From: Armatimonadota bacterium
GTDB taxonomy: Bacteria; Armatimonadota; HRBIN16
Direction: 5' to 3'
Length of the DNA stretch: 35,164 nt
Assembly (NCBI GenBank): GCA_026003195.1
Contig: BPGU01000007.1
Location: 1-35,164, forward strand
How positions within the stretch are numbered: the first letter of the stretch is position 1; every line of letters begins with the position of its first letter. The notes below the pieces were generated by a model that worked only from the letters and a program-made list of their open reading frames with translations, made no database searches and was not told the DNA's origin. The position numbers were made by a program, and so were the translations under genes. This document shows positions 3,902 to 33,829 of this stretch, in pieces.

Positions 3902-5155
3902 TTACTCGTAGTATTGGATGAGCACTTTCGCCATATTCCAGTAATCGTTCACTTCGCGCAGGTCAATCATCTCCAGCGGGTCGAACGGCAGACCTGCGCA
4001 GAAGTGTTGTTCCGGTCTTATCGTGAGCGTCTGGTCGTCCCGTGCGAAATACACCTCATTATGTGAGGTGGTTGCCCAGTATTCGGTGACGACCAATCCG
4101 ACGCCTTTCTGCACCAGCAGTCGTTCATCCACTTTCCATCCTGCTGGTGCGGTGCGTCGTTCCAGCTCGAACTCGACGAGGTGCTCCTGAACCTTATCCA
4201 GTGGGATGTTGTTGTTCAGCAGCACCGTCCACGCGGATTTCTTCTGTATCATACGTGGACTGACGATGATGTCTACGGGTTCATCGTTCACGATGACGTC
4301 GTGTTCGAGCAGGAAGGTCATGCCTTGTATGCCGCTTGCTGCCATCAGTTTCAGCGTCATGTTCTCCACCTTATACTCGCCAATCGCTTTCTGTTGCGGT
4401 AGTTGTCCGTATGCCGTCCAGCGGTTGGTGGTGGCGACCGTTTCGTTGCGTTCGCGGTCGCGCACTTTCTTGATGTTGGTGGAGAACGGCATTTCCGCAC
4501 GCATCTTGCTCATACCGGTTGGAGTGACCAGCATGGCGTCATGCACCGGTCCCTCATGCAGATTGGTTTCTGCGATGAGGGTGCGCAGTGGTTTCCAGAT
4601 GCCCCATGCCGGTTCCTCCTTCCGTTCATCCTGCCATGGGATAGCGTTCTTCCATGCGGACCGGAGTTTGCGTCCGGTTCGGTGGGCAGCGAACGCATCC
4701 CAGTTGGGATTGACGGTGCGGAAATGGTCATCGCTGATGCACAGTTTACGGAACGGATGGGAGTTACCGGTGATGTACGGGTTCGCTCCCAGCACGTCCA
4801 TAGCAGCAAGCACGGCGTTGCGTTTGCGCACATAGTAGAAGTCGTCTTGCTGTGCCTGGTCGCGAGGTAGGTCCAGTTCCACTTCGCGGCGGAGTTGCTC
4901 GAGCTGGTTCTGTGTCATGACGATTTCCAGCCCGTTGATGAACTCGCTTTTGTCGTCCGCGCGTGCGAACTGGTCTTGCAGGGTGAGCACATGGAAACGT
5001 TTCACGTATCCGAACTCATCATACTCCGGCAGCAGTTTCACGGGGCACCAGCGTTTCGTGCCCGTTCGGGTTGTAATCAGCCAGCCCGCAGCCGGTAGTT
5101 TGTCGGAGATACTCGGAAACGTCTCCGTGGAAATCACCAGCGAAGTCAGGATCAT
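3902..5155 (-). CDS. RNA polymerase beta-like protein (second half of a split polymerase)
   Basis: A 417-residue protein that I assign to the beta-type double-psi barrel of multisubunit-like RNA polymerases. Around residue 204, VHDAMLV resembles the EDAI(L/V) motif of beta. Residues 269-279 (KLMAASGIQGM) match in spacing the beta motif K-x7-K-G-V: Lys269 aligns with the first catalytic lysine, but the second lysine position is Gln277. Then VDIIVSP (294-300) matches the VDI-(V/L)-NP strand that follows in beta. The same order of motifs occurs in the giant protein at 10472-16618. The start follows GGAGGAGGAG closely and lies inside the 3' end of the beta'-like gene (137-base overlap). Assignment is by motif; loss of the second lysine raises doubt about full activity. 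Confidence 0.6.
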   Translation of the reverse strand: MILTSLVISTETFPSISDKLPAAGWLITTRTGTKRWCPVKLLPEYDEFGYVKRFHVLTLQDQFARADDKSEFINGLEIVMTQNQLEQLRREVELDLPRDQAQQDDFYYVRKRNAVLAAMDVLGANPYITGNSHPFRKLCISDDHFRTVNPNWDAFAAHRTGRKLRSAWKNAIPWQDERKEEPAWGIWKPLRTLIAETNLHEGPVHDAMLVTPTGMSKMRAEMPFSTNIKKVRDRERNETVATTNRWTAYGQLPQQKAIGEYKVENMTLKLMAASGIQGMTFLLEHDVIVNDEPVDIIVSPRMIQKKSAWTVLLNNNIPLDKVQEHLVEFELERRTAPAGWKVDERLLVQKGVGLVVTEYWATTSHNEVYFARDDQTLTIRPEQHFCAGLPFDPLEMIDLREVNDYWNMAKVLIQYYE

Positions 5156-6290
5156 CGTACTCCTCCTCCAGTTTGCCCGACCAGAGCTGTTTGAGCAGCT
5201 CTTCGGGCGGAGTTTCGATGTGGCGGATGATGCTGCGCGGTCGTGCTCGGCGCATGAGTACGGTGAACACGCCGCCTTCGGGCATCATCCATGCCATTGC
5301 TTCCGCGCTCTTCATCACCTCCTTCCCATACGGCAGGTTGAGGATAGATTCGTCGGGCGTGGCGGTTCCGCGGATGCATTCGATGGCATGACGCACGTCG
5401 AAGGTGGATTCCGCTTTGAGTTTACGGGCGTCCATGACGTGTTCAATCAATGCCGTGGCGAAATCCCACACCTCGCAGGCAGCCTTTTGCGGGTCTCCAG
5501 TCCTTGCAGCATGGGCATACTGGAGTACCCATATCGCCTGAATCACCTGACCGATGTATCGGGTTGCGGTGAATCCCCAATACAGGTCATCGAATTCGGC
5601 GTTCGGCTGGATTTCCGGCGTCACGTCCCACTCTGCGAAATGTATCTTGCGGGCGATGGTGACGCGCGGTGCGGGTTTCTCGCCTGAGATATAGCCGGCG
5701 AATCCCTCATCGCCATCCGAATCGCCTTGCAGGTCTTCCACTAAGGTGTTCGGATGGACGAGGATTGCCCTGTGCGGATAGTTAGTCACTCTCCGGGTCG
5801 GGCGGATCCTGCATGAGGAACTGCTGGCTTGCGGAAACCGCTGGAACACGGTCAAGCGGGTGGGCTTCCCGAAGGTAATCCAGATTTCGCCTTCCGGCAC
5901 TTCCGGATGACCTACCAGTTTCGCCCAAGCGCACGGCAGTTCATACTGCGCTGTGCGGAGCAGTGCTCGACCGTATTCGCCCTGATTGCGCCCCACTCCG
6001 ATTACCTGTCTTGCCAGTTCTTGAAGGAGTCCCCGATAGGGTTCCCCTTTCGCTTTGGCGATGGTAATCTGGTGGAGCGTGGTGAAGGGCGGTCGCAGCT
6101 GCACGACGGGCAGTTTGGACCGGTTCAGCTGGATATAGTCTACGGGCAGGTTCGGCTTTGGGATGGGGATGAGGTCGCCATAGACTTCCAGCTGTGCTGG
6201 TTCGCCGGTGACCATTTCGTGGAGGATGGTTCCGCGATCCGGTACGGCGAGGTTTGGTGCCACCGTGTGAAGCACCTTCTGAACGATCAT
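5019..6290 (-). CDS. RNA polymerase beta'-like protein with DSDGD (first half of a split polymerase)
   Basis: A 423-residue protein. Residues 151-194 carry the beta'-type barrel signature: Arg-Phe-Pro at 151-153 (compare Arg-x-Pro in beta'), AILVHP at 175-180, and the metal-binding motif GDSDGD at 189-194. Asp190, Asp192 and Asp194 would bind the catalytic magnesium. The Arg-to-Asp spacing (39) is close to that in the giant protein (37). A later helix, YIGQVIQ...HVMDARK (245-290), also has a counterpart in the giant protein (IGQVARI...VIMDAGK). The ATG at 6290 follows AGGAGGTGG. The gene is first in a unit with the beta-like gene. Related small polymerases are known in phages such as Thermus P23-45 and crAss-like phages; exact family unknown. 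Confidence 0.65.
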   Translation of the reverse strand: MIVQKVLHTVAPNLAVPDRGTILHEMVTGEPAQLEVYGDLIPIPKPNLPVDYIQLNRSKLPVVQLRPPFTTLHQITIAKAKGEPYRGLLQELARQVIGVGRNQGEYGRALLRTAQYELPCAWAKLVGHPEVPEGEIWITFGKPTRLTVFQRFPQASSSSCRIRPTRRVTNYPHRAILVHPNTLVEDLQGDSDGDEGFAGYISGEKPAPRVTIARKIHFAEWDVTPEIQPNAEFDDLYWGFTATRYIGQVIQAIWVLQYAHAARTGDPQKAACEVWDFATALIEHVMDARKLKAESTFDVRHAIECIRGTATPDESILNLPYGKEVMKSAEAMAWMMPEGGVFTVLMRRARPRSIIRHIETPPEELLKQLWSGKLEEEYDDPDFAGDFHGDVSEYLRQTTGCGLADYNPNGHETLVPRETAAGV

Positions 6291-6299
6291 GTTCCACCT

Positions 6300-6598
6300 C
6301 CTGAACGAGGTTTTGCAGAGCGAGACTATCTAAGCGCCAGATAGCCGAAAGAGGATTATCTAAAGCGACCATTCCTTGAAGAGGAGAGGAGACATATCAT
6401 CAGAGAGGAGAAGATCAAAGCGAGAAGAAGCGAAGCGAGGAGAAGATGTTCGGTGTACTCGGGTGTGTTATGTGAGGTGTGTTGCTAAAAGGATAGGTTA
6501 TCGGAGTGCTATGTGAAGGGTGTTGCTAAAAGGGTGGGCTGTCTGCCCGTCGGTGGCTACGGTGCAAGGGTGGGGGCTGTTCCGCCCCCTTTCCCTTG
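6300..6598 (-). promoter_or_regulatory. Leader region of the beta'-like gene, with repeated motifs
   Basis: No gene is seen in this roughly 300-base gap. Two TATCTA motifs (near 6319 and 6355; TAGATA on the minus strand) recur here as in other leaders, and CTATCT/AGATAG form a short inverted repeat. Further out, a 25-base direct repeat (GTTATGTGAGGTGTGTTGCTAAAAGG and a variant) lies near 6467 and 6510, beside a purine-rich tract at 6375-6445. The gap ends in the terminator of the next gene. Promoter position cannot be fixed by eye. Confidence 0.4.
6566..6596 (-). terminator. Terminator hairpin after the 6599-7042 gene
   Basis: GGGGGC (6572-6577) pairs with GCCCCC (6584-6589), extended by AAGGG/CCCTT, directly past the stop codon on the minus strand. 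Same family as the hairpins after the neighbouring genes. Confidence 0.6.
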
Positions 6599-7104: not shown

Positions 7105-7112
7105 CCGGTGCG

Positions 7113-7319: not shown

Positions 7320-7351
7320 CATTCTCCTCCATGTAAAGGTTGATTCCAAAG

Positions 7352-7373: not shown

Positions 7374-7381
7374 TCTTTGCA

Positions 7382-7770: not shown

Positions 7771-7794
7771 CGTTTCTCCTCCTTAAGAGAATTC

Positions 7795-7860
7795 CAGAGT
7801 GTGGCTATCTAAGCCACTGTTCCAGAACAGGGTTATCTAAGTCCCGGTTCCGAAATCTGA
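7795..7860 (-). promoter_or_regulatory. Leader with two TAGATA stem-loops
   Basis: GTGGCT (7801-7806) pairs with AGCCAC (7812-7817) around the loop ATCTA. A second copy has GGG 7830-7832 and CCC 7843-7845 around TTATCTAAGT. On the minus strand the loops read TAGATA. CTGGAA follows each, and then the ribosome binding site. Related leaders lie before the genes at 8633 and 9683. Confidence 0.5.
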
Positions 7861-7948
7861 CTTTCTACTTTCCTTGTTTCCTTTTCAAGGCGGTGGCTGG
7901 GGGCGGGTGGGCGGGGACAAGGTGAGGGTTCTGTCAAGGTTCCTTCGA

Positions 7949-7972
7949 AAGGGAGGGGCTATTCGCCCCTTC
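7949..7972 (-). terminator. Terminator hairpin after the 7976-8266 gene
   Basis: GGGGC (7955-7959) pairs with GCCCC (7965-7969), flanked by AAGGGA/TCCT. The segment before it (GAGGGTTCTGTCAAGGTTCC, TTCGAAA) recurs before other hairpins of the family. Confidence 0.6.
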
Positions 7973-7975
7973 CTC

Positions 7976-8266
7976 CTACAGCCACAGTTTCACGTCCACC
8001 CGGAGGATGCCGTTCTCTATCTTGACGGTGGCATTCTCATGGGTTACGGTTTTCCAGTCGTCGGCTGTGACCATAGCGGTCCAGCCTTCTTCCTTCTTGT
8101 GGATGAAGACGGTCTTTCCGCTATCGGTCTCAATCAGGATTCCGATATGGTTCAGGTCGGAATCGCTGATATGACCGATTCGTCCAGCCACCTCACCGCC
8201 GAAGGCGGCTAATGGCTGGAACTCTTCCTGCTTCATCCACACCGGGTACTTGATATGTGCTCTCAT
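7976..8266 (-). CDS. Hypothetical beta-rich protein
   Basis: An unrecognised 96-residue soluble protein whose residue pattern is mostly beta strand (HIGILIETDSGKTVFIHKK, NATVKIENGILRVDVKLWL). The start at 8266 is chosen because AAGGAGG lies eight bases upstream; the frame extends upstream without a binding site. It has its own leader and terminator. No motif points to a function. Confidence 0.65.
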   Translation of the reverse strand: MRAHIKYPVWMKQEEFQPLAAFGGEVAGRIGHISDSDLNHIGILIETDSGKTVFIHKKEEGWTAMVTADDWKTVTHENATVKIENGILRVDVKLWL

Positions 8267-8321
8267 CCTGCTACCTCCTTCCGGAGTATGGCTTTCTATG
8301 GTTATGTGAGGGTTCATCGAA

Positions 8322-8344
8322 AAGGGTGGGGCTTTCGCCCCATC
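8322..8344 (-). terminator. Terminator hairpin after the 8355-8633 gene
   Basis: GGGGC (8328-8332) pairs with GCCCC (8337-8341) with a TTTC loop (GAAA on the minus strand), followed on the minus strand by ACCCTTTTC. One of the best examples of the family. Confidence 0.65.
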
Positions 8345-8354
8345 GGCTTCGACG

Positions 8355-8633
8355 TTAGCTTGGGTCGAATATCACAACGTCGAAGCCAACCACGCGCATC
8401 TTGATTGGCGCTACGATGCGCAAGGTGCGTGTGGCGTCGTCGCGGAAATCGGCGATCGCTACGGGATCGCCGTCGACGACAAGATGGACAAGCTTCCCGC
8501 CGTTGCGATAGTAGATCGCAACGTCGGGCGATGGTCGGTGCACGGGGTCGTTCCCGTAAGCACCGGGGTACATGAACACGGTTTCGCCAAGATCTATCTG
8601 TGGTGGTGCTGGGTAAAGGTACTTGTTGTTCAT
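8355..8633 (-). CDS. Hypothetical beta-rich protein
   Basis: An unrecognised 92-residue protein. Strand-like segments dominate (KLVHLVVDGDPVAIADF, TRTLRIVAPIKMRVVGFDVVIF) and the N-terminus is rich in Tyr and Pro. I choose the ATG at 8633 (eight bases from AAGGAG) over the in-frame ATG at 8639, which is too close to the binding site. It sits in an isolated cassette with a TAGATA leader and a terminator. Confidence 0.65.
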   Translation of the reverse strand: MNNKYLYPAPPQIDLGETVFMYPGAYGNDPVHRPSPDVAIYYRNGGKLVHLVVDGDPVAIADFRDDATRTLRIVAPIKMRVVGFDVVIFDPS

Positions 8634-8640
8634 TCTCATC

Positions 8641-8690
8641 TCTCCTTGTATAGTATTCCAGAGCCGGGTTATCTAAGACCCGTACTTCTG
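8641..8690 (-). promoter_or_regulatory. Leader with a TAGATA stem-loop
   Basis: CGGGT (8665-8669) pairs with ACCCG (8678-8682) around the loop TATCTAAG. On the minus strand this is followed by CTCTGGAATACTATAC and the ribosome binding site. The CTGGAATACTATACAAGGAG part is identical in the leader of the gene at 9683. Confidence 0.5.
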
Positions 8691-8751
8691 TGGTGGAGGT
8701 GTCTTTGGCAGGTGTGGGCAAAAGCGAGGGTTGTGTCAAGGTTCCCTCGAA

Positions 8752-8777
8752 AAGGGTGGGGCTTTCACAGCCCCAAG
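8752..8777 (-). terminator. Terminator hairpin after the 8786-9157 gene
   Basis: GGGGCT (8758-8763) pairs with AGCCCC (8769-8774), with ACCCTTTTC following on the minus strand. Confidence 0.6.
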
Positions 8778-8785
8778 GGTGTTAC

Positions 8786-9157
8786 TCATGGTTTGGTAGC
8801 TTGTTTTGCATCTTGCAGTTCGTCGTTGATATATCTGCATGAATTCTCCATTTCCTGGAGATTCACATCCGTTCGACTCAGGTGTTGCAGAGCTGCGATG
8901 AGCTTCTTTTCATCTCGCGAGACAATCGCCTCTTGTATGAGGACGATTGCCTCGTTTGTTTGTTTCCTGGCATCCACTACGTTGATCTTAATGTCATTCA
9001 TGTAAGCTTCTGTGCGCTGTACATGGTACCTTACAGGCCTTAGTCGGTCGTTCACTTCCTTTTGGGTTACAAGAACGAACGCGACAAACAGCGCGAGGGC
9101 CGTTCCTAAGAACAGCCCTATTACCCCGAGCCGATCCCAGTCAATCCCGATAGTCAT
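8786..9157 (-). CDS. Membrane-anchored coiled-coil protein
   Basis: A 123-residue protein with one N-terminal membrane segment (about residues 9-31, GVIGLFLGTALALFVAFVLVT) and a long charged helix (32-123) with heptad-like spacing, probably a coiled coil exposed in the cytoplasm or outside. The start has AAGGAGGAG six bases upstream. Similar plans occur in spanin-like, superinfection-exclusion and membrane-scaffold proteins, but no specific match is visible. There is no lipobox, which argues against an outer-membrane spanin subunit. Confidence 0.65.
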   Translation of the reverse strand: MTIGIDWDRLGVIGLFLGTALALFVAFVLVTQKEVNDRLRPVRYHVQRTEAYMNDIKINVVDARKQTNEAIVLIQEAIVSRDEKKLIAALQHLSRTDVNLQEMENSCRYINDELQDAKQATKP

Positions 9158-9289
9158 TCTTACTCCTCCTTGTAGTAGTTTTCCATAGCACGGCTATCTA
9201 TACTCTAACTCCAATGTACAGGTTTCCTGCTATCCTTCATATTCCTTTGGGCGGATACAAAAGTGAGGGCTGTGTCAAGTTCCTTCGAA

Positions 9290-9313
9290 AAGGAAGGGGC
9301 TTTCGCCCCTCTC
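9290..9313 (-). terminator. Terminator hairpin after the 9324-9683 gene
   Basis: GGGGC (9296-9300) pairs with GCCCC (9305-9309) around TTTC, flanked by AAGGAA and CTCTC; the minus strand reads TTCCTTTTC after the stem. Confidence 0.6.
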
Positions 9314-9323
9314 TCTCTCCTGC

Positions 9324-9683
9324 CTACAGTGTGTAGACAGGAGAGAAGTTGTCGACGATGATGTGCTCGTCGTCGACGTATGAGATGGTGCAGGAGGTCG
9401 CCATCGCCAAAATGCGGGCGACTTCTTTGAGTTGTGTTTCGTCGGCGGATTCAATCCACCGTGCCGCCGCATTCAGGACTTCCGGGTCCCTCCGGAAGTC
9501 CCAAGTTTCGACGGCTGCTGGGTGGTTGATGCGGTAGTGGGTGTTCTTGTCTTCTCCTACTGTTTCCACAATCTCTATATCGTGTCCTAGTGCTCGTGCT
9601 ATCCTGACTACCCAGTATCCTGGCGTGGCACCCGCCAGGATTAGGGTCTGCAGAACCTCGACTGGTTTTCCTTCCAGTCTCAT
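9324..9683 (-). CDS. Hypothetical protein
   Basis: An unrecognised 119-residue soluble protein of mixed helix and strand. Residues 1-40 could form a small helix-turn-helix-like unit (VEVLQTLILAGATPGYWVVRIARALGHDIEIVE), which would suit DNA binding, but the match is weak. The start has AAGGAGG eleven bases upstream. It has its own TAGATA leader and terminator. Function unknown. Confidence 0.65.
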   Translation of the reverse strand: MRLEGKPVEVLQTLILAGATPGYWVVRIARALGHDIEIVETVGEDKNTHYRINHPAAVETWDFRRDPEVLNAAARWIESADETQLKEVARILAMATSCTISYVDDEHIIVDNFSPVYTL

Positions 9684-9695
9684 TTCTTGTTTCCT

Positions 9696-9735
9696 CCTTG
9701 TATAGTATTCCAGAGCCTGGTTATCTACAACCCTC
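9696..9735 (-). promoter_or_regulatory. Leader with a TAGATA stem-loop
   Basis: GGTT (9719-9722) can pair with AACC (9729-9732) around ATCTAC. The adjoining CTCTGGAATACTATAC is identical to that before the gene at 8633. The stem is only four base pairs. Confidence 0.4.
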
Positions 9736-9783
9736 TCTTCATTCCTTCATCGAAGAAAAGAGAGGGTTATGTCAAGGTTCGTT

Positions 9784-10471: not shown

Positions 10472-13400
10472 TCAGAAGAAGCGGTCTATCGGTATCACCC
10501 GCTCCGACCGGCGCTGGCCAAGGAAGCGTCCGAGGGCTTGCAGAGACTCTACCTCGGACACCAGCTGCTTGACCTCGCCACCGCGGATGCGGAAGACCTC
10601 GACCGCTTCCGCCTCCAGCTTCGCCTTCGCCTCATCACCAGCAGCGACGGCAGCATCCCGCTTGTACATCGCAGCCTGGCGGAGGAGCATCTGAGAGCCG
10701 AAGTTGTCCTCACGCCCAATCGTCGCACTGGTATGCGGTAGCGCGATGGCGTGGAGCTTCAGCACCATCGCAGTGCCGATAGCCTTCCGCTTGTCGCCCT
10801 CTACCGCATATAGAGGCACGACGTTATAGTCAACGCCCGGATGCTCAGCCTTGATGCGCTCGGCGAGCTGCTGAGCATACCGGGCGGCTATCTCCATCTC
10901 AGCCTTCTGGCACTCCGGATTGTCGCCAACCTCATAGTTCGCGCGAGAGGCGAGTATCTCCGCCTCAAACGCTTCGATGAGGTCGGTATAACCGAACAGC
11001 TGCGCCAGACCGTAGAACACCACCGTGCCCGTCTTCTTCTCCACTACTGCAGTAGCGGGCGCGATGATGTCTACGGTGTGCTCCTTATCGCCCATGACCG
11101 CCACGATCTTCTGGTCATGCAGCACGCTCGCTACACCCTTGATCGTGCCTTCGGTGAACATCAGCTTGAAGGCATCGGGCGTAGCGTCGGCACCAACCTT
11201 CACCGAGGCGCGGACGATGGTATACATATCAGCCACGCTCTCGAAGCTGAAGTTGATGCCGAACTCGCTGAGCTTCTCCCAGTCGTTCTCGCAGGCGAGA
11301 ATCGCTTTCTCGTCTATAGCGAGCTTGCCGCCGCCATAGACGATATACTGAGCCTTCAGGCCGCACGTCTTGATAGCAGCCAGAATCTGCTCAGCATAGG
11401 ACTTCTCGCCCTGGCTGAGTACGATCTGGACGCTCCGCGTGACCGGAATCGTGAACGGACGAGTGGCCACCATGCCCTCTACGGACGTGTAGGCGTGACC
11501 GGTATCCGGAGCGAGCGGGATCGGATTCCCTTTCTCATCCTTCTCAACCGGAGCCACCAGCCAGTCCGCATTCGCGAAGGCCACGGTGACCTCCATCGGC
11601 AGATGCTCCTTGCCGTTTACGATGAACGGCAGACCAACCAGCGGCAGCTGCTCGCGGACGCTGCGGCGGAAGTTGGTCGCCACTACGCGGATGCCCATAT
11701 CCTCCAGCTCGGCCCGATCTGCAGGATCGAACCACAGGATGCGAGAGGCATCCTTCTTGAGTGGCAGATAGATGCGCTTCCGCCCGTCACGGCGAATCAG
11801 CTGGTTGATCAGCTCGCCCATCGCCACATAACCTATCTCCTTGCGGCGAGGCAGCACTGCCATGACGCTCTTCTTGCGCTTGCCGTCATCAAGCCGCACG
11901 AGTACCTCTTTCGGACGGCGAATCAGCCCCAGAAGCACATCATCTACATACAGCATGTGCTTCAGGAACTTCACCGCGTCCTTGGACTCCGCATCGTTCT
12001 TCGTGTCGAACATCGCGCTCAACCGCTGATTGACGACACGCTGAACGATCGGAATCAGCGTGGCATTGATGGAACCGGCAAAGCGCTTGCCATCAATCTC
12101 CTCGACCTTCACGAGCGAGGAGCTCATCACGGCTTGTATCATCTCGTCTATCAGGACGACAAACGGATCCTGATAGACGATACCGAATTCTACCTTAACG
12201 GTCTTATCGCTTTCGGTCTCGATCTCTTGATGAATCTTACCGAAAGCGAACCGACCTCCGAGGATGCGGTCGCGCCCGTCATGGCTTATTCGGACGGCGG
12301 TGACAACATCGCCGATCTTGGAGACGATGCTCACCGGACCTACCTCGACGATCGGGCGATACATGGTCTCATAGTATGCACCGGTCTCGCCCGTATCGTA
12401 GGTCTTGGCGTAGTTCACCATGACGGGGGCCAGCAATACCACGAACGTCTGCTTCACCTCCACCCCATTGACCTTGCATACACGGCTGCGGATTACCGGG
12501 ATGATATACGGCAACCGCCCGCCACTCCTGTACGCTTCGGTCAGGATGGAGTTCATCGTGGTCACGTCGCTGACCCAGACCTCCTCCTCCTTTCCGTTGA
12601 CGACTCGCTTCTGCGTCACCCGGTACGGCGCCATGAACCGAGTGTTCTTGGCATACCGGGTGGTCGTATATGCGTCTACGAAGAATGGCCGGCTACCGGG
12701 TTCGACGATAGACGGCACGAAGCAGTCCACCTGCTCGCCTCGACCGTTGAAGACCTTTGCATGTGTGCTCGGCTTCGTCGCGATGAACTCCAGGCAGGTG
12801 GCCTTCGGATAGTCGAACTGCCGAGCCGCACGGCCCACATTCCATGCTACGAAGCGCACGGGCAGGCTCTTCTCCAGCTCGGCGTTCACATGTTTCTCTA
12901 TCTCATCAGCGCTCATCACACTGCCAGCCGGAACACGTGGCAGGTTGGCGCTGCCGCTCGTGTTCATCACCGAGACGGTGGAGGACTTACCTTCCAGCCA
13001 GAGCTCGAAGGTCTCCGGAGTCGGCAGGTATCCGTTCAGATACGCTGCCTCTAACGCCTCCGCGCCGTCGTAGATGTTGTCATCTTTCTGGCTAGCGCCA
13101 GGCAGCCCCGCTACCTCTTCCATCATCATCGCTGCCTCGCGAACCTTGTCGGAGAACTCATTATTCTCGCCGAAGAAGTCATCCAGATACTCGGCGAGTT
13201 CGGCCAGAGCCAGCGCATACTCGGCGGGCGTGCGCAGGCTCATCATGGAGACCAGATGGTCTACGAACGGCAGACCAAAGTCCATCTGCTTGACCTTGCT
13301 GGTCTCCTTTCCGGCGTCCATGATAACCTCGAGCAACGGCAACATTGCATCGCCGAACTTGACAGCAACCTCAGGACCGGCAATGCGTGCTACCTGACCG

Positions 13401-16400
13401 ATCATGGACACCACGTCGACGTGCAGCGCACCCACACCGCTGCGTGCGTCGGCACCGATCAACGCGAGGATACCCTCGAACATCGAGGTCGGAAGCACCT
13501 TGGTGCCGACACTCTCCAGCATCAGACGCAGATCATGCACCAGCTTGGACTTGTCACCGATCTTGTTCTCGGTGATCCGCGCATAGCGCAGATCCACGTC
13601 CTTCCGGCTCATGGCCTCCTTGACCTTTGTGAGCAGCATGCACAGGAAGTACAGGTCGCCGTCGAAGTCGCCGTAGAACTCCTTGGCAACATCCGGCGGC
13701 AAATGCAGTGCATTGCTACCCATAACGCCTACTATATGAACGCGCCGATATGCGTTGGTAATCTCGGTCACCGGGTTGCGGAACAGGAACGCGCCCAGTC
13801 CGCCGCTGTTGACAGCAGCAATCAGGCGCTTGATGTCCGCAAGCGTTACCTTCTTCATACCGGCCCCGCTCAGGATCTGGCGCAGAAGCTTCACACCCAC
13901 GCCAACATACACGACGCCGTACTTCTTCTGCCAGCGATTCTCCGCTTTCTGGCGTGCGGCGTTCGGTATGGCGGGGCTTACCGTGCCCAACGCGCCGACA
14001 CCGGAGCGCATGCGCCCGCGACGCAGCCACGGACGGCTAGAGCCGATAACCTTCTTCGCCTCATCCTCGGCGACGTTAGCCGCCTCGGATACGGACCGCG
14101 CCTCGCGATAGCCTTCCATCTCAGCACGCTTCTTGTTGATGGCGCTGAGCAGGCCCAGCACCAAGCCCTCCGCCGAGTCGGGCTGCACGGATACGATGAG
14201 CGTGCCGTTCTCCAGCTCCGCATCGATACGGGCGAGCCGCCCGTCTATGCGGAATGTATACTCGCTGTGGCTAGGCACAACCACATCGAACACCTTGCGA
14301 GCCTTGACCAACTCGGCAATGCGGCCCGTGAGCACGAACCAGTTACCGGCTGTGATGACGCCGGTGTCGGCGGGGTCTACGCGCAACATGTTATCTACCT
14401 CCACGCCTGCAGAATCCTGAGCAGGCTCGTCATCGTCATCATCCACCGACTCTTCAACATCAGCATCGTCGACAACGATCTCGACGGTGTCGTCCAGCTC
14501 CACGTCGTCCACCCAGTCCACGTCACCCGCCTCGCTATCCTCGGCGAGCTTGGCAGGATCGATGGACTTCATCTGCTCGCGCAATGCGGACAGTGCCGCC
14601 GTAACATCTTCCTCGTTGTCCGCGCTGTCCACCACAATCTCATCCTTGTCTACCATCTCGTTCTTCACCTCCGACGCCTCCTCATCCTGAGCGTCATGGG
14701 AGACTCGCTCTACGCTGGTCTTTTCCTCGACGTTGGAGGAGGCGGCTGATTCTTCAACAACTACAGGCTCCTCACGCACTTCTTCGTCCACTTCTATATC
14801 AACCAGATCGGAGCCGTTCACATACGTATCACCCACCAGCACCTTGCACTTGATGCCCAGGTAGACTGCCATGCGAATCATCATCGCAGTACCACCGGTG
14901 GGCTGGCCGTTCTCCATCTTCGGGAAGGCTACCACGACGCTGCCTTCCGGCAAGTCGACGAGCATGGCGTAGTTGCGGATGTGCAACTTCCATGCCGCGT
15001 CCGTGAGCCGCTCCGGTGCAGGATGCAGCTTCTGCACCAGTTCGCGCCCACGCTCCGCCACTTCCGGCGAGACGTATACCTTCTTGCCAGGCAACGCCTC
15101 TCCGGAGTGACCACGCCAAGGCAGTACCAGAATGGCATTGTGGCCAAGCGCATGTGCAGTCTTTGCCACAATGGCATCAATGCCTTCCGCACCGCCGGTC
15201 ATGATCTGGAAACCGCGCCTGATGCCGGCCTCCACCGCCTTCTTGCAGAGGTTGATCTGCGTGACGGACGGTGTACGGGTGCCGACGATGATGGAAATCG
15301 GCTTCCGTACGGTGCTGGTGTTCATCTTTAACTCCTCCCGAATATCCATCAACAACTTGCCCAGCATGTTCTGTCCGCCATGCTGGCACCACCACTTCGC
15401 GCAACCGGTGCACACGCCCCAGAACGTGTCACCCCAGTCGTTCTCCTCCACGATCTGGGCGTCGCCGGTTGCGAGAAGCGCATCGCGCAGCTCCGGCACG
15501 CTGAACTTCTGGCGCAGAAGCTCACGCATGACTTCCACTTTCACCTTGTTCCAACCCGACTCATCGAAGCGAATGCCGCGCTGGTCGAGGTTGTACTGCT
15601 TCAACGCCGCCTTCGCCTGTGCAGGAGTGCACTGCTTCAGCAGCTTGCGCAGCTCCTCGACGGCGGCTTCCAGCCCGTGCTGATGGACGCTGCGCAGGTA
15701 GTCCAACTTCGCCGCCTGGTACGCGTTCTCAACGGAAGGATACTCCACACCCTTCCATGTCACGCGCACCGGATGGAAGTTGGAGAACACCGTACCAACG
15801 GTGTTCACCTTTGCAGCCTTCTTGTCGACACGAGGCTCCTTCACAACTTCCTCCATCTTGCTTACCGCATACCATTTCCCGGCCGGCAGGTTGGCTTTGA
15901 GCACGGCAGACACCTGCGACCATTGCAGGCGGCCCAGCCCGCAACCTACGCGCGGCATGACCGCAGCACGAACAGGCATGGAAAGCGCAGCCTTGCGGAT
16001 AAGGTCAATGTCGGCGTTCTCCTTCCAGTGATACTTAGTCGGGAACAGCACGACGTTGAACCGCTCCACAAAGACGCTCCGCCCGTCCTTCAGCACCTGG
16101 AGATAGTTGCGATACTCATCATCCAGACCGGGATAACGGTCAGCCGCCTGCTTGGCGACGCCTGCGCCCATCGTACCGGCGCAGTTCACCGGCACAACGA
16201 CGGGCAGGCCAAGCTCGGCTGCGACCTGCCACACGTCGCCAACACGCTCCGTGAACATAACCTTCTCCTCCTCCTGTACGACTTCGGCCTGGTCCTCAGG
16301 CACTACTTCGTACAGTCGTCCCCCACTCTTCGCACGGGCAAGCAGAGACTCGATCTCTGCGTGCGCCTCGTCGGCGAAATGGAGTTCTGCCCCATAGTAA

Positions 16401-16618
16401 TGCGCCCCCTCAAAGTAGGCGCGGGCGCTAGTGGGCAGAACGATCCGGTCCACACGCAGACCGTCCTGCTTGAGGAACTCCACGAGGGTCTTAATCTCCT
16501 CGCGGTAGGTCCTCTTCTCATCGCTCGCCATGCCCGCACGACGAGCGATGACCTTCTGCCCTTTTACAAGCACCGCGGCGAACGCGCGATGCTCGACTAC
16601 GAAGAACAGGGTGTTCAT
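10472..16618 (-). CDS. Giant fusion: macro, NADAR, SLOG-like and RNA-polymerase-like domains
   Basis: A 2048-residue protein, numbered from the ATG at 16618 (GTG at 16621 also possible; GAGGAGG precedes both). Residues 1-110: small domain shared with the gene at 18418. 123-255: macro domain of DarG/TARG1 type, with PVNCAGTMGAGVAKQ, FPTKYHW (Lys195 at the catalytic lysine position) and PRVGCGLGRLQW. 274-431: NADAR domain (FSNFHP, YPSVENAYQAAK, LLATGDAQIVEEN, FWGVC, LGKLLMDIREEL). 439-600: SLOG/DprA-like Rossmann unit (VGTRTP, TGGAEGIDAIVAK, PTGGTAMMIRMA). 605-745: acidic linker. 945-990: beta'-type barrel with FRNP and GDFDGD (Asp984, 986, 988). 1818-1870: beta-type motifs Lys1818, Lys1827-Gly-Val and VDIIAP; LKLHAIA near 1953 resembles the beta C-terminal clamp. 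Its start overlaps the previous stop (TGATG). Confidence 0.8.
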   Translation of the reverse strand: MNTLFFVVEHRAFAAVLVKGQKVIARRAGMASDEKRTYREEIKTLVEFLKQDGLRVDRIVLPTSARAYFEGAHYYGAELHFADEAHAEIESLLARAKSGGRLYEVVPEDQAEVVQEEEKVMFTERVGDVWQVAAELGLPVVVPVNCAGTMGAGVAKQAADRYPGLDDEYRNYLQVLKDGRSVFVERFNVVLFPTKYHWKENADIDLIRKAALSMPVRAAVMPRVGCGLGRLQWSQVSAVLKANLPAGKWYAVSKMEEVVKEPRVDKKAAKVNTVGTVFSNFHPVRVTWKGVEYPSVENAYQAAKLDYLRSVHQHGLEAAVEELRKLLKQCTPAQAKAALKQYNLDQRGIRFDESGWNKVKVEVMRELLRQKFSVPELRDALLATGDAQIVEENDWGDTFWGVCTGCAKWWCQHGGQNMLGKLLMDIREELKMNTSTVRKPISIIVGTRTPSVTQINLCKKAVEAGIRRGFQIMTGGAEGIDAIVAKTAHALGHNAILVLPWRGHSGEALPGKKVYVSPEVAERGRELVQKLHPAPERLTDAAWKLHIRNYAMLVDLPEGSVVVAFPKMENGQPTGGTAMMIRMAVYLGIKCKVLVGDTYVNGSDLVDIEVDEEVREEPVVVEESAASSNVEEKTSVERVSHDAQDEEASEVKNEMVDKDEIVVDSADNEEDVTAALSALREQMKSIDPAKLAEDSEAGDVDWVDDVELDDTVEIVVDDADVEESVDDDDDEPAQDSAGVEVDNMLRVDPADTGVITAGNWFVLTGRIAELVKARKVFDVVVPSHSEYTFRIDGRLARIDAELENGTLIVSVQPDSAEGLVLGLLSAINKKRAEMEGYREARSVSEAANVAEDEAKKVIGSSRPWLRRGRMRSGVGALGTVSPAIPNAARQKAENRWQKKYGVVYVGVGVKLLRQILSGAGMKKVTLADIKRLIAAVNSGGLGAFLFRNPVTEITNAYRRVHIVGVMGSNALHLPPDVAKEFYGDFDGDLYFLCMLLTKVKEAMSRKDVDLRYARITENKIGDKSKLVHDLRLMLESVGTKVLPTSMFEGILALIGADARSGVGALHVDVVSMIGQVARIAGPEVAVKFGDAMLPLLEVIMDAGKETSKVKQMDFGLPFVDHLVSMMSLRTPAEYALALAELAEYLDDFFGENNEFSDKVREAAMMMEEVAGLPGASQKDDNIYDGAEALEAAYLNGYLPTPETFELWLEGKSSTVSVMNTSGSANLPRVPAGSVMSADEIEKHVNAELEKSLPVRFVAWNVGRAARQFDYPKATCLEFIATKPSTHAKVFNGRGEQVDCFVPSIVEPGSRPFFVDAYTTTRYAKNTRFMAPYRVTQKRVVNGKEEEVWVSDVTTMNSILTEAYRSGGRLPYIIPVIRSRVCKVNGVEVKQTFVVLLAPVMVNYAKTYDTGETGAYYETMYRPIVEVGPVSIVSKIGDVVTAVRISHDGRDRILGGRFAFGKIHQEIETESDKTVKVEFGIVYQDPFVVLIDEMIQAVMSSSLVKVEEIDGKRFAGSINATLIPIVQRVVNQRLSAMFDTKNDAESKDAVKFLKHMLYVDDVLLGLIRRPKEVLVRLDDGKRKKSVMAVLPRRKEIGYVAMGELINQLIRRDGRKRIYLPLKKDASRILWFDPADRAELEDMGIRVVATNFRRSVREQLPLVGLPFIVNGKEHLPMEVTVAFANADWLVAPVEKDEKGNPIPLAPDTGHAYTSVEGMVATRPFTIPVTRSVQIVLSQGEKSYAEQILAAIKTCGLKAQYIVYGGGKLAIDEKAILACENDWEKLSEFGINFSFESVADMYTIVRASVKVGADATPDAFKLMFTEGTIKGVASVLHDQKIVAVMGDKEHTVDIIAPATAVVEKKTGTVVFYGLAQLFGYTDLIEAFEAEILASRANYEVGDNPECQKAEMEIAARYAQQLAERIKAEHPGVDYNVVPLYAVEGDKRKAIGTAMVLKLHAIALPHTSATIGREDNFGSQMLLRQAAMYKRDAAVAAGDEAKAKLEAEAVEVFRIRGGEVKQLVSEVESLQALGRFLGQRRSERVIPIDRFF

Positions 16619-18258
16619 CACATTACCTCCTCATAAGTAACGGCGCCGGGTGCCGCTACAAACGCGACAACAGCGCCGTTCACTTCGGATGCCTGTCGGA
16701 TGAGAGCCAGTACGTCATCAGCGTACTGCTCTGGCGTGAACGGCATCCTCACGTTCACGCCAACAACAACATAAGGCAGGTCGCCATAGTGGCGGCGGAA
16801 CTTCTCGATGTCCTTCTGGATCTTCGAGACAGCCTCGCCTACCTCGACCTGCCCGTTGACCAGCCGCTTCATGGCGCTGGTCTTCGTGGGCGTAGTTGCA
16901 GCCAACCAGTTCATCGTGGTCAGCTGCAGGCAGACGCCAACGCCATCCACGATGACGAAGGCGTCTACACCTGCCTTGCGGTCGTCCTTCTGGCTGCGGT
17001 GCACTTCCACACCGCGAGCCTCAAGCGCCACAAGCAGGCGCTGCTCCGCGTCGCGCCCACCATCCGACGCGGAACCGACGACGGCTTCAAAGCCAGCCGC
17101 CGCGTCGAATGCGAACGCGAGGCGGCTGACCAGATCGTGCAGGCCGAAGCCGTCAATCGCCTGCACGATAGCCGCTGCGTCGGTCTCGTGACCGCGCAGC
17201 GACTCAAGGACGCGAACCGCGACTTCCCTGTCGCGAACCGCACCCCACCGCAGCGCCTCTACCAGCGCTGCGTGCAACTGCGGCAGCATCGGGGCTGCCG
17301 CCTTGGCCTTGAGAACCGCTGCCTTCTTGCGGCGCAGCGCCTCCTTGATGCCGCGCCGCACGGCAGCCCGTTTCCGCGCCGCTTCCTTCTCCGCGGCGCG
17401 GATCTTCTTCAGAGCCTGCTTCCTGGCAAGCTCTTCCTTGGCGGCCTCAACAGCCGCCTTCTTCTCGCCGCGCTTGTGCAGGCGCGGCTCTTTCTGCTCC
17501 TTCGAGGGAGCCGGCTCAGCCTGCTTCACGACAGGCTTAACAACAGCGACCGGGACAACAACGCGCCGGCTGTGCCGCAAGGCCATCTCCCCCTCTGCCT
17601 TGCGGTACTCCGCATACTCAGCGCGGCTCATCAGATAGCCGCGCTTCCGCAAGGCCCGGAGCAGGGCCTTGGCATGCCGGACAGTGCGCCGAACGGACCT
17701 CTTGATTCGATCGGCGACCTTCTCCGGCAGACGGCGCGCCCGGCTCTTCGCAAACTCCGTCGCGGGAGTTGCTATATCGTGAAGCGCCATGTGCCCGGTC
17801 TTCACATGGCGCTCATAGAACCGCTCCACGGCGTCGCGACCGTGGAGCATTACCATCAAATGAGCCCAGGCACCGAGGAGGCTCGCAACCTCCTCCAGCC
17901 CGGGCTCTTCAATCGACTCGAAGAGGCTAATCGCCTCCTCGAGCCGACGGATAGCGCTGGCGAGCCTGCCGGCCCCCAGGCCCGCCAGCATTCGAACTTG
18001 CCGGTCGAAGCGGACAGCGCGATCCGCCTCGCCGGCAGCTTCGAGGAGGGTGACGATGGCAGCGAGGGACTCGTCACCCTCAAGAACCTCCGCCCCTTCT
18101 ACATGTGGCGGAAGTTCATCGGCTCCTGGTAATCGGAGCCAGATGGCATCCGGCCCATCGCGGAGCCAGAGCAGCATCTCCTGCCCTGACTCCATCGTCG
18201 CTGGCTTGCTCGGCCTGGGCCGGACGTGGCCGAGCAGCTCGGCGACAGTAACTTTCAT
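16618..18258 (-). CDS. Hypothetical protein with a basic coiled coil and a nuclease-like C-terminus
   Basis: A 546-residue protein coupled to the giant gene (TGATG overlap) and therefore a likely partner of it. The N-terminal 250 residues are helical. A Lys/Arg/Ala-rich segment (about residues 255-335) looks like a basic coiled coil that could bind nucleic acid. Near the C-terminus (about 405-510) a pattern Glu...GVEVHRS...GVDAFVIVDGVGVCLQLTT resembles the core of restriction-endonuclease-like folds, with Asp then Gln-x-Thr where active enzymes have Glu-x-Lys; it is probably inactive. I place the start at the ATG at 18258 because GGAGGG lies six bases upstream; the longer frame has no binding site. 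Family not recognised. Confidence 0.7.
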   Translation of the reverse strand: MKVTVAELLGHVRPRPSKPATMESGQEMLLWLRDGPDAIWLRLPGADELPPHVEGAEVLEGDESLAAIVTLLEAAGEADRAVRFDRQVRMLAGLGAGRLASAIRRLEEAISLFESIEEPGLEEVASLLGAWAHLMVMLHGRDAVERFYERHVKTGHMALHDIATPATEFAKSRARRLPEKVADRIKRSVRRTVRHAKALLRALRKRGYLMSRAEYAEYRKAEGEMALRHSRRVVVPVAVVKPVVKQAEPAPSKEQKEPRLHKRGEKKAAVEAAKEELARKQALKKIRAAEKEAARKRAAVRRGIKEALRRKKAAVLKAKAAAPMLPQLHAALVEALRWGAVRDREVAVRVLESLRGHETDAAAIVQAIDGFGLHDLVSRLAFAFDAAAGFEAVVGSASDGGRDAEQRLLVALEARGVEVHRSQKDDRKAGVDAFVIVDGVGVCLQLTTMNWLAATTPTKTSAMKRLVNGQVEVGEAVSKIQKDIEKFRRHYGDLPYVVVGVNVRMPFTPEQYADDVLALIRQASEVNGAVVAFVAAPGAVTYEEVM

Positions 18259-18363
18259 CGTTCCCTCCTCTAATTCCCCACTCAGCCGCAACCTTTTCAG
18301 GCTGCGTTGCCCGGCACCGCCACGTGGAGGCGGGGGTTTCGGTGCCGTCATCAATTCCAGCAC

Positions 18364-18400
18364 GGGATGGGGAGCCAGCATCGGCTGCTTGACCCATCCC
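18364..18400 (-). terminator. Hairpin after the 18418-18777 gene
   Basis: GGGATGGG (18364-18371) pairs with CCCATCCC (18393-18400), with an inner AGCC/GGCT. It follows the stop on the minus strand. There is no T tract, so it may be part of the general hairpin richness of this block. Confidence 0.4.
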
Positions 18401-29140: not shown

Positions 29141-30745
29141 GTGGATAAGGTCACTAAGGACATACTGGAAGAGATAGATCCGCAGTGGATACAGCGGGTG
29201 ATGGAAGACCCGCTGCTGTTTGCGGAGACCTTTCTGGTCGACCCTGAACACCGCAAGCCGTTCAAGGCGAACTATGTGCAGCGGCTCATCTTCGATGCGG
29301 TCAAACATCACCGGCGGATTGTGGTGCGGGTGGCTCGGCGTTCCGGCAAAACGTATGCGCTTTCGGTATTGGCGCTATGGTCGGCATTCGTGAGACCGAG
29401 CAATCGCATCCTGGTCATTTGTCCGGACAGTGCAAAAGTAGAAGCGATATTCAACAACATCGACGCCTTCCTGGAATCGAACTCCTTCCTGCGGGCTTCG
29501 CTATCGGGTAGCCGTCGTGCTCCGTATATGACCAGGGAGTTTTCCAACGGGTCTCGTATCAGTGGGTTCTCGGCGGGCTCGAGATCCAAGGGGGAGGCGC
29601 AGACGCTACGCGGTCAGGGCGCGGACGTGGTGATTATCGACGAGGCGGCGTATTTCAACGACGAGGACTTTACGGCGATCAACCCCATTATCGAGGGTGA
29701 CATCCACCATGAGCCTCCCATCACCATCATGTCCTCGACGCCTCGGATGAACAGCGGGAGGTTCTACGATACCTGCACCAATCCGGAGTTGAAGAAGATA
29801 TGGTATGAGATTCATGTACCGGCATCGAAGAACCCCGATTATACTTCCCGTATCGACTACATCCGTGCTTCGGTAGGTAAGCTGGAGTGGGAGACGGAGT
29901 ACGAGGCGGAGTTCCCCGAGCAGGGTGAAGGCTTCTTCCGCAAGGGTGACATCCTGTATGCAAAGCGGGAGTATCATTACAATATCAACAATGTACCCAA
30001 AGATGGGTATTTGGCGTTTGGGGTAGACTGGGATAAGGTATCGGCTGGCTGTACAATTGCGGTGGTGCATTACGAGCCTGAAATCCGACTGTATAAGTTA
30101 GTCTATCGGGAAGAAGTAGAGCGTAGCGATTTCACACTGACCGAAGCGGTAAGCCGAATCATCGCACTGAACGAGCAGTTGAAGCCGCACTGGATCTACG
30201 TAGACCGTGGTTTAGGTGAGCAGCAGGTTGAGTTGTTGCACCTGCATGGCAAGCAATACCCGCACACGAAGCTACATGAGAAGGTCAAGGGCTGGTGGTT
30301 CCACCAGTATGTGGAACGAGAAGACCCCGTTACCGGTGAACGGGTCAAGGTGCGGTTGAAGGATGCGATGAACACCTATCTGGCGAACCTGCTGGAGCAG
30401 CGACGGTTCGTCTTCAGCGTTTGGGACAACAAGTTCGACATGCAGCTGCGTTCTTACAGAGTGGTCGGCGTCTCCAGTAGCGGGTTGAGGTACTCCTCCG
30501 ATCAGGAGCACATCATCGATTCCACCGCGTTGGCGATTTGGGCGTTGAAGACGAACTATGAGGATCGCCAGGTGGGGCTGGTGTATGAGGCGGAGCGGAT
30601 GCGTGCTGCGATGGTGCAGCTGGAATCGGATCGTCCTACCTCTCTCATCCGTTCTTTCTACAACTCCGTAACGTCTGGATATACAGAGACGCCTCGTGGT
30701 GGATTTCGGTCGTTTACGGATTTCGGAGGTAGCAGGTCGTTCTAA
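29141..30745 (+). CDS. terL: Terminase large subunit
   Basis: A 534-residue DNA-packaging motor. ATPase domain: Walker A ARRSGKT at 65-71, Walker B VVIIDEAA at 163-170 with the catalytic Glu, and coupling motif SSTP at 198-201. RNase H-like nuclease domain: GVDWDK around Asp296, YVDRG around Asp355, and HIIDSTALA around Asp460, which together should bind two metals. All key residues are present. It begins with GTG at 29141 with a weak binding site, and its stop overlaps the next start (TAATG). Confidence 0.93.
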   Translation: MDKVTKDILEEIDPQWIQRVMEDPLLFAETFLVDPEHRKPFKANYVQRLIFDAVKHHRRIVVRVARRSGKTYALSVLALWSAFVRPSNRILVICPDSAKVEAIFNNIDAFLESNSFLRASLSGSRRAPYMTREFSNGSRISGFSAGSRSKGEAQTLRGQGADVVIIDEAAYFNDEDFTAINPIIEGDIHHEPPITIMSSTPRMNSGRFYDTCTNPELKKIWYEIHVPASKNPDYTSRIDYIRASVGKLEWETEYEAEFPEQGEGFFRKGDILYAKREYHYNINNVPKDGYLAFGVDWDKVSAGCTIAVVHYEPEIRLYKLVYREEVERSDFTLTEAVSRIIALNEQLKPHWIYVDRGLGEQQVELLHLHGKQYPHTKLHEKVKGWWFHQYVEREDPVTGERVKVRLKDAMNTYLANLLEQRRFVFSVWDNKFDMQLRSYRVVGVSSSGLRYSSDQEHIIDSTALAIWALKTNYEDRQVGLVYEAERMRAAMVQLESDRPTSLIRSFYNSVTSGYTETPRGGFRSFTDFGGSRSF

Positions 30746-32001: not shown

Positions 32002-32399
32002 GTGTGATATGGAGATGGATTGCCCGTATTCTGGATATTCGATGGAAACAGAGAAGAACGGCGGAAGTGCTGCGTGTCATTCGTAGTGTGTATCCCAATC
32101 AGCCTTACGTACTGTACGGACGCTGGAGCTGGACGGACAGGGAGAACCCGATACAGGTGGATATCCTGTTCCCCTATATCCCTGTCGCGGTGCAGATATT
32201 GAGCTGGTACGATGTGGATAGGAGAACCTGCCAGCTGTTTTGCGGAGATTACGAAGACAGAGTACGTCGTTTGAATCGACTGGTAAACAGGGCACTGGCT
32301 ATCAACCTGCCTTTTGTGCAAGTGAGACCGGATGAGACCCCGGATGAAGAATGGGTTAGAAGAAAGATTCCCTCTGGAGAGCTGGTATCCATATCATGA
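31998..32399 (+). CDS. Possible restriction-endonuclease-like protein
   Basis: A 133-residue protein. The middle part, QVDILFPYIPVAVQIL (53-68), followed by Asp/Arg-rich residues and a second strand, LPFVQVRPDET, resembles small nucleases of the PD-(D/E)XK group with Asp55 and a (Glu to Gln)-x position. The N-terminus is basic with several Trp. The match is partial. The start is a TTG at 31998 overlapping the previous stop; a GTG at 32004 is possible. It overlaps the portal gene by four bases. Confidence 0.5.
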   Translation: MSVIWRWIARILDIRWKQRRTAEVLRVIRSVYPNQPYVLYGRWSWTDRENPIQVDILFPYIPVAVQILSWYDVDRRTCQLFCGDYEDRVRRLNRLVNRALAINLPFVQVRPDETPDEEWVRRKIPSGELVSIS

Positions 32400-33829
32400 A
32401 TACAGATGGAATGCAAAGAGAGTTGGACTTGACCGGTATTGTGGGTGTAGACATCCGCAAAGGACGAGGCAACCTGAGGCCTGGTCTGCCATCCATAATG
32501 GGGGTGCCGAACACCAACCGTTATCCCGGTGTGCTTACCGATAAGCCGGAGCAGATCGATTTCCAGACGATCACCAAAGCGTATCTGCGCGATTCGTATC
32601 TGTCGCGCTCCATCAACCGATACGTTTCCATCTGTTTCACCAGGGAGCCGGAGATCGAGGCATCGGAGTCTGTTGCGGATTACCTGCAGCGTCGGCTGAT
32701 TATCAGTGCCTATTTGAACGAGATGAGTTTACGGCAGTGGTTCCGAGTGGTATTCCGCGACTTCACGTTATACGGCAACGCCTTCCTCATCAAGAGCCGG
32801 ACAACCCAGCTCTCCAGGGTAGGGCAATACGAGATACGCGGGCAGCGCGGTGTGATAGCAGGTTTGTTCCCGGTACCGCCGGAAACGATGCGTCCGATCA
32901 TGGATGATACGGGCACGAGGGTATCGAAGTGGTTGTACACTTCCACGACAACAGGGCGGCGGGTGCAACGAGAGTTTCCTGCGGAAGATGTGTGCCATCT
33001 GCGATACAACCCGATGCCCTCTTCCATCTGGGGTTTGCCCTTCATCTTCTCCACCATTGAAGATATCCGCTGTTTGCGCAAGTTAGAGGAATCCATCTTG
33101 CTACTCATCGATAAGTTTGCCAACCCGCTTATCCATGTGGAAACGCCTGATCTGACAGGTACGGGTGATGGTATTATCGAGGATATGCAGGTGATAGCGA
33201 ATGCCATCCGGTCGATGTCTAGAGATGGCGTGTTGATTACTGCGCCCGGTCAGAAGGTGAACGTTATCGGTGCAGAGAGTATTGCGTTGAGGATGGAGGG
33301 TTATCTGGACGCCTTCAAGCGGCGCGTGTTCTCCGGTCTGGGTATGAACGAGAGTATGATAGGTGACCGGAGCATGGAGCAGAAGGACGTGGAGCTGGAC
33401 CGTATCCTTAGAGACCAGGCGATGGACCTGCAACTCCAGTTTGCCAGTCAGGTTGAGCAGAAGGTGCTAGAGGATTTGCTGATGGAAGCGGGTATTGCGG
33501 AGTCGGTGCGTTTGTGTTTCGGCGATCCCGACCCGTTGTATTATGCAAAACATGCTCAGGCTGTATCTAATCTGTATATTGCCAACATGATTACCGAGGA
33601 CGAGGCACGCGAGATGGTAGGACTGGATAGCATGGAGAATCGGGATTACAAGCGCACCTACGTCTTCCGTGCGAAGGTGCCGTTGATTCAGGAGCAGGCG
33701 AAGGCGCGTGCTTCGATGTCCGGGTTGTCTACCGGTGATAGTGATCAGCCGTCCCCAGATTCGAAGTTACCAAAGAGTCGCTTGTCGGATAAGACTGCGC
33801 GAGAGCCTCGCCCGAGGAAGAGAGATTAG
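32396..33829 (+). CDS. Portal protein
   Basis: A 477-residue phage portal subunit, the dodecameric ring through which DNA enters the head. Typical features: YLRDSYLSRSINRYVSICF near 61-80, FRDFTLYGNAFLIKSR near 120-135 (the conserved GNA(F/Y) segment), HLRYNPMPSSIWGLPFI near 200-216 (H(I/L)R...G.S), and FKRRVFSGLGMNESMIGD near 310-328, the stem and wing pattern. The C-terminus is a polar tail. It overlaps the upstream gene (ATGA). Order terminase, portal, protease is the usual one. Confidence 0.85.
   Translation: MNTDGMQRELDLTGIVGVDIRKGRGNLRPGLPSIMGVPNTNRYPGVLTDKPEQIDFQTITKAYLRDSYLSRSINRYVSICFTREPEIEASESVADYLQRRLIISAYLNEMSLRQWFRVVFRDFTLYGNAFLIKSRTTQLSRVGQYEIRGQRGVIAGLFPVPPETMRPIMDDTGTRVSKWLYTSTTTGRRVQREFPAEDVCHLRYNPMPSSIWGLPFIFSTIEDIRCLRKLEESILLLIDKFANPLIHVETPDLTGTGDGIIEDMQVIANAIRSMSRDGVLITAPGQKVNVIGAESIALRMEGYLDAFKRRVFSGLGMNESMIGDRSMEQKDVELDRILRDQAMDLQLQFASQVEQKVLEDLLMEAGIAESVRLCFGDPDPLYYAKHAQAVSNLYIANMITEDEAREMVGLDSMENRDYKRTYVFRAKVPLIQEQAKARASMSGLSTGDSDQPSPDSKLPKSRLSDKTAREPRPRKRD

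Follow-up and report, generated by a model that had tools for sequence, protein, structure and literature searches.

The stretch of DNA analysed here (the window; 35,164 bp, the whole contig C7 of a 4.58-Mb assembly) encodes a giant phage protein in which an ADP-ribose-related module is fused to a core that probably is an RNA polymerase. The gene may encode a phage RNA polymerase with tethered DNA or RNA ADP-ribose erasers directed against DarT-type defence; we put the probability of this reading at about 0.45. The original prediction had described macro, NADAR and SLOG domains in one chain. The combination was borne out, with three significant profiles in one frame. Overlooked were the other 1,280 residues, an RNA-polymerase-like core that bears the three domains as an appendage.

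The giant gene (10472..16621, minus strand) is a single unbroken frame of 2,049 codons from a GTG. An ATG at 16618, one codon after the GTG, is the more likely start because the Shine-Dalgarno sequence GAGGAGG lies just upstream of it. Residue numbers count the GTG as 1 throughout; the lysine earlier listed as Lys195 in ATG numbering is K196 here. The range 14818-16252, to which the module had been assigned, corresponds to residues 124-601 and omits the N-terminal ~120 residues and ~1,450 downstream residues. The domain order is macro, NADAR, SLOG, followed by an acidic linker (residues ~600-765; 14327..14824, minus strand) with 56 Asp/Glu and 9 Lys/Arg in 166 residues. The N-terminal ~112 residues (16286..16621, minus strand) had no family match in profile searches (Pfam, PHROG, NCBIfam) and were not found in the related phages. 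A 4-base overlap with the stop of the preceding co-directional gene (16618..18381, minus strand; 587 aa) suggests coupling of both genes. The upstream gene has no assigned family. Its homologue precedes the giant gene of a sister phage (BLAST 4e-10), with conservation in the N-terminal half. The last ~150 residues of its product look by eye like a nuclease of the PD-(D/E)XK type or a related fold; no profile matched them.

The sister phage is represented by contig C5 of the same assembly (202 kb), a related myophage with a tail sheath gene. Terminase, head protease and portal share 42%, 49% and 37% identical amino acids with their counterparts in the window. Its giant protein (C5:71741-76783; 1,680 aa) starts with the core, followed by acidic linker, macro and SLOG, without a NADAR. 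A frameshift artefact as origin of the fusion was ruled out: the window frame is open over all 2,049 codons, and the C5 homologue also joins macro and SLOG in one frame, with a macro that is 62% identical. The SLOG domains are 35% and the cores about 25% identical. The window core (residues ~766-2049; 10475..14326, minus strand) and its homologue (G000:C5:72797-76783) share full-length similarity in an HMM comparison over the whole length. BLAST of core against core aligned two segments (E 2e-9 and 7e-6), and a whole-length alignment was made. The C5 protein is the only close relative of the window core. By these identities, conservation of the macro far exceeds that of the core or the terminase. 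The module behaves, as judged from the two proteins, as a transferable appendage that changed ends between the phages.

The macro domain (residues ~121-250; 15872..16261, minus strand) is of the DarG/TARG1 type. It matched PHROG 335 (8.9e-23, residues 121-292), the PADLOC DarG model (2.6e-15) and the NCBIfam DarG model NF048014 (2e-13); the best PDB matches include DarG 5m3i and TARG1. The matches of macro, NADAR and SLOG are far beyond chance. DarG-type macros are known to act on thymidine in DNA, and the catalytic macrodomain lysine is K80 in Taq DarG. This lysine is kept in the FPTK motif of the giant protein (K196; codon at 16034-16036) and is present in 81 of 85 aligned macros. A tree of 87 macros pairs those of the two giant proteins and places them among stand-alone phage macros. 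A full-length DarG or a C-terminal DarT-binding domain was not recognised: the matches cover 17-133 of 329 (PADLOC) and 16-158 of 338 (NCBIfam), and the DarG comparison gave 50.3 bits against a cut-off of 250. Macro relatives in the same phylum (G006, G012, G019, G025, G042 and G054) directly adjoin DarT matches, and of nine other genomes of the genus, two had DarT matches. The host genome (G000) gave no DarT match, and no darT lies beside the giant gene. On a contig of an uncultivated phage, macro and NADAR are adjacent separate genes (L190:8932-9915); in L159, macro and SLOG genes are located close together.

The NADAR domain (residues ~277-437; 15311..15793, minus strand) is of the YbiA type. 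It exceeded the cut-offs of Pfam (7.9e-24; 85.2 bits, cut-off 35.1; residues 277-432) and TIGR02464 (85.1 bits, cut-off 73.7). The glutamate-lysine pair SVE298NAYQAAK305 has a spacing of 7, as E88/K95 (compared with PMC11543638 and PMC11125620), and the YbiA-type last-strand glutamate lies in IVEEN. The claim that catalytic-type residues are kept holds for these three NADAR residues as for the FPTK lysine of the macro. Removal of ADP-ribose from nucleic acid is the best reading of the macro and NADAR pair, because the macro is DarG-type with cellular relatives beside DarT and the NADAR is YbiA-type. Both domains are predicted to be hydrolases.

NADARs act on guanosine-ADP-ribose in DNA and RNA (PMC11543638, PMC11125620, PMC11833690), and some macrodomains remove ADP-ribose from RNA phosphate ends (PMC11833690). 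With nascent RNA emerging at the polymerase, the erasers might act mainly on RNA, either by repairing transcripts hit by mRNA-targeting toxins or by processing NAD-derived 5' ends made by the polymerase. The thymidine substrate of DarG-type macros argues for DNA, and in neither the giant gene nor its upstream partner did profile searches recognise a domain for RNA binding or RNA repair; a main role on RNA is quite improbable.

The SLOG domain (residues ~440-600; 14822..15304, minus strand) is DprA-like, with matches to DNA_processg_A (1.4e-8; 34.6 bits, cut-off 29.6; residues 440-592) and PHROG 768 (4.2e-19). The Rossmann-like nucleotide-binding motifs GGAEGID/GGADGID and GGT are common to the SLOG domains of both giant proteins. 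It does not score as a true DprA (equivalog TIGR00732; 23.8 bits, cut-off 191). Some defence systems use SLOG domains to bind NAD-derived signals, and both giants have a SLOG. The module could handle small NAD-derived signals (cADPR isomers, ADPR-1''P) from TIR or RES effectors, with the core as a carrier for early delivery. Iyer et al. (PMC9503650) favour such small substrates; they found phage macro, NADAR and SLOG to co-occur and argued that these mainly process low-molecular-weight ADP-ribose derivatives. A scavenger of soluble signals, however, would have no need to be fused, in two phages, to an enzyme that acts on nucleic acid, and the DarG-type macro with its cellular relatives beside DarT also speaks for a nucleic-acid substrate. 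No Thoeris protein model was among the PADLOC matches and nothing found points to cADPR trapping; the trapping of Thoeris signals that had been part of the counter-defence proposal was rejected. The small-signal function is unlikely. What stands of that proposal is nucleic-acid erasing, carried by the DarG-type macro, the YbiA-type NADAR, the phage context and DarT beside related macros.

The core had no match in any family library searched. With the giant proteins themselves as queries, core relatives were not found in viral or genome contigs. With the core as query, tblastn gave nothing credible among 50,697 phage records, and a scan for the YGDxDGDxY DNA pattern yielded mainly Gly/Asp repeats and no core relative. 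Contigs with terminase relatives are too short to reach the giant gene. Many uncultivated viral contigs (L023-L101) have near-pure Gly/Asp/Tyr short frames (YGDGDGDGY), likely simple-sequence DNA. L020 (G196) was considered as a weak core relative and rejected; it reads as an NAD-dependent DNA ligase, with a helix that matched by chance.

The polymerase assignment starts from a beta'-like double-psi barrel signature (DPBB-A; residues ~945-1000; 13622..13789, minus strand), FRNP...LPPDVAKEFYGDFDGDLYF. Within this signature, RNP...GDFDGDLYF, the DFDGD is located at 13655-13669. The counterpart in the C5 giant is RRMP...LPPDIALQLYGDEDGDRYY. By motif, both are the R.P...DxDGD block of the DPBB-A of two-barrel RNA polymerases, and the presence of the beta'-like signature in the core is statistically supported. 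The host rpoC profile scores the window giant protein (P0001) with 6.3 bits, compared to a maximum of 2.1 in 200 shuffles per protein. This score exceeds those of the known polymerases gp77 of phi14:2 and YonO. The unselected giant pair matched a DPBB-A profile of rpoC and YonO with an E-value of 0.0054 for the whole core and 0.001 for the sub-region. This unguided alignment scored ~26, above every one of 60 column shuffles (at most 17.5). Among 6,931 other frames with 1.6 million residues, matches of the R.P...DxDGD regular expression were confined to known polymerases, to Gly/Asp repeats and to a single frame of a related phage.

That frame (L313:9902-11473) has a homologue in a third phage (L315:9926-11542) with 45% identical amino acids. 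The genes behind them (L313:11382-13358 and L315:11518-13452) are 49% identical, making a conserved pair. A profile of these four sequences found similar split pairs in the window and in C5. In the window, gene A (5019..6329, minus strand; 436 aa) reads RFPQASSSS...GDSDGD...MDARK and has an E-value of 6.8e-5 genome-wide with the A9 profile. Gene B (3902..5284, minus strand; 460 codons) reads KLMAASGIQGMT...VDIIVSPRMIQKK. In C5 (C5:66570-68950, minus strand), as in the window, the DxDGD gene is followed by the K...KG gene. In four phages, the split genes contain the R.P...DxDGD block along with another conserved block, (N/D)A(R/G)K. A six-member phage block reached E-values of 1.3e-4 against rpoC and 9.9e-6 against rpoC and YonO; since some members were picked by the motif itself, these values are flattered and are supporting rather than independent. 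An independent profile search did not link giant and split genes (P0001 ranked 68th), and pairwise local alignments between giants and split genes were not significant. The connection rests on motifs and gene order. In two related phages with split genes, NADAR was missing from the entire records, which are possibly fragments, and neither macro nor SLOG was seen in the parts that were read. A split pair in each of the two phages with giant genes suggests two polymerase sets per phage.

An alignment also placed a bridge-helix-like segment (LPLLEVIMDAGKE; residues ~1075-1110; 13292..13399, minus strand), assigned at motif level only. A weak candidate for the beta-like barrel (DPBB-B; residues ~1790-1880; 10982..11254, minus strand) reads K1819-x8-K1828-G...VDII. 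The motif K-x7/8-[KQ]G...VD occurs in P0001 at residues 1818-1875 (FKLMFTEGTIKGVASV...HTVDIIAPATAVVEKK), in the C5 giant and in the second gene of each split pair; it is the pattern of rpoB, GDKMAGRHGNKG...PVD. An unguided alignment to rpoB had K1819 and K1828 in register, with an E-value of 0.023 and one of 60 shuffles scoring higher. The host rpoB profile alone gave no signal with the giant in single-protein tests, nor did the YonO profile with the giant pair. AlphaFold2 gave no usable model for core residues 850-2049 (2 alignment rows; mean pLDDT 30.6) or for the DPBB-A region (4 alignment rows; mean pLDDT 36.0). Due to the weak statistics of the second barrel and the lack of a usable model, the core is regarded as probably an RNA polymerase, at the level of motifs and profiles, and the reversed order, with the DxDGD barrel preceding the lysine barrel, as an even chance.

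The same observations, together with the lack of a family library match, would fit a core that is an unrelated giant phage protein, such as a virion or ejection protein, with a DxDGD loop and the module as cargo. This is doubtful in view of the unguided alignment of the giant pair to known RNA polymerases above every column shuffle and of the two conserved blocks shared by the split genes of four phages.

The element is a tailed phage, as indicated by genes in the window for a terminase large subunit (29141..30745, plus strand), a portal protein (32396..33829, plus strand), a head-protease-like protein, a sigma-like factor and a primase-like protein. The sigma-factor-like protein (22176-22799, plus strand; PHROG 351, 6.2e-8) could serve the host or a phage polymerase. 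The phage also encodes a peptide deformylase (25321-25830, plus strand; PHROG 2890, 1.5e-24). The element appears to be integrated, with the left end of the window next to the chromosome, because window positions 1-8290 match, base for base, the reverse complement of one end (the first 8,290 bases) of contig C3 (922 kb), where a cellulase, ruvA, ruvB and other chromosomal genes follow. The assembly breaks inside the phage. Another genome of the genus has a region 92-99% identical to window positions 1-9737 (L323; G005:C6:150001-164425); its contig ends immediately before the giant gene. At ~903-1370, direct repeats offset by ~96 bases gave secondary BLAST matches to C3 and G005.

Integration would be expected if the module served a dormant prophage, by shielding the DNA of the lysogen from DarT-like toxins or through antitoxin-like addiction or exclusion. 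Such a role is highly improbable: a module fused to a polymerase is expected to be used while phage genes are being transcribed, and the host genome had no detectable DarT.

In the preferred reading, polymerase with tethered erasers, a large, integrated tailed phage would have two RNA-polymerase-like enzymes, one of them encoded by the giant gene. The acidic linker would tie the eraser module to the two-barrel core. The DarG-type macro would remove ADP-ribosyl-thymidine and the YbiA-type NADAR ADP-ribosyl-guanosine, the latter from DNA or RNA. The SLOG would bind a nucleotide and possibly senses the ADP-ribose product or an NAD-derived ligand. DarT toxins modify single-stranded DNA, which transcription itself would expose. 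The tethered erasers would clear ADP-ribose from transcription bubble, template or transcript, and the phage could keep transcribing in DarT-bearing hosts. We infer this co-transcriptional coupling, like the activities and substrates of the domains, from sequence. ADP-ribosyl-thymidine in the non-template strand inhibits mycobacterial RNA polymerase and in the template strand may stall it; the authors suggested transcription as a source of the single-stranded DarT substrate (PMC12170906). During phage infection, DarT inhibits viral DNA replication and RNA synthesis (PMC11543638). The C-terminus of DarG was reported as a mimic of negatively charged DNA (PMC11481870); its likeness to the acidic linker is only a lead to the role of the latter. 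The full version, a DNA-dependent RNA polymerase with reversed barrels, joined in one chain to two DNA/RNA ADP-ribosyl hydrolases and a nucleotide sensor for co-transcriptional erasing of host ADP-ribosylation, is more tentative.

If true, repair of the template by the polymerase itself would be a novel means of evading nucleic-acid ADP-ribosylation and would tie phage transcription to NAD-based immunity. The core would extend the two-barrel RNA polymerases by a divergent branch, and each phage would have two polymerase sets. The giant protein would offer a direct test of the substrates of phage macro and NADAR domains, nucleic acid or small signals. To our knowledge, the counter-DarT factors AdfA and AdfB neutralise the toxin or stand alone.

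The combination of SLOG, macro and NADAR by itself is not new, since phage proteins with these three domains in one chain, as here, were already described (Iyer et al. 2022, PMC9503650; jumbo phage survey, PMC7824862). The available text of these studies does not mention fusion to a polymerase-like core; here, the module is attached to a core of ~1,280 residues and changes ends. With DarG of DarTG, the giant protein shares the DarG profile matches and a macro with the catalytic FPTK lysine. Unlike DarG, it is part of a 2,049-residue phage protein, has no darT beside it and no recognised C-terminal DarT-binding domain. The NADAR resembles NADAR/YbiA hydrolases in exceeding curated cut-offs and keeping E298, K305 and the last-strand glutamate, but is a fused domain. 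NADARs of T4-type phages have a histidine at the last-strand position instead of the YbiA-type glutamate. AdfA and AdfB of T4-like phages and ICP1 act in phage counter-defence against DarT, the role proposed here. AdfB was proposed to neutralise DarT by direct interaction (PMC11481870), whereas removal of ADP-ribose is proposed for the giant protein. The single-chain two-barrel RNA polymerases YonO, phi14:2 gp66, P23-45 gp64/gp96 and QDE-1 have, as here, an R.P followed by DxDGD in the DPBB-A block. The giant protein differs from them by the added ADP-ribose module and shows no significant pairwise similarity. In published single-chain polymerases the lysine barrel precedes the DxDGD barrel (PMC10770324), the reverse of the order in the giant protein if the assignments hold. 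P23-45 and phiKZ-type phages each encode two polymerases, as is likewise proposed for the phages described here.
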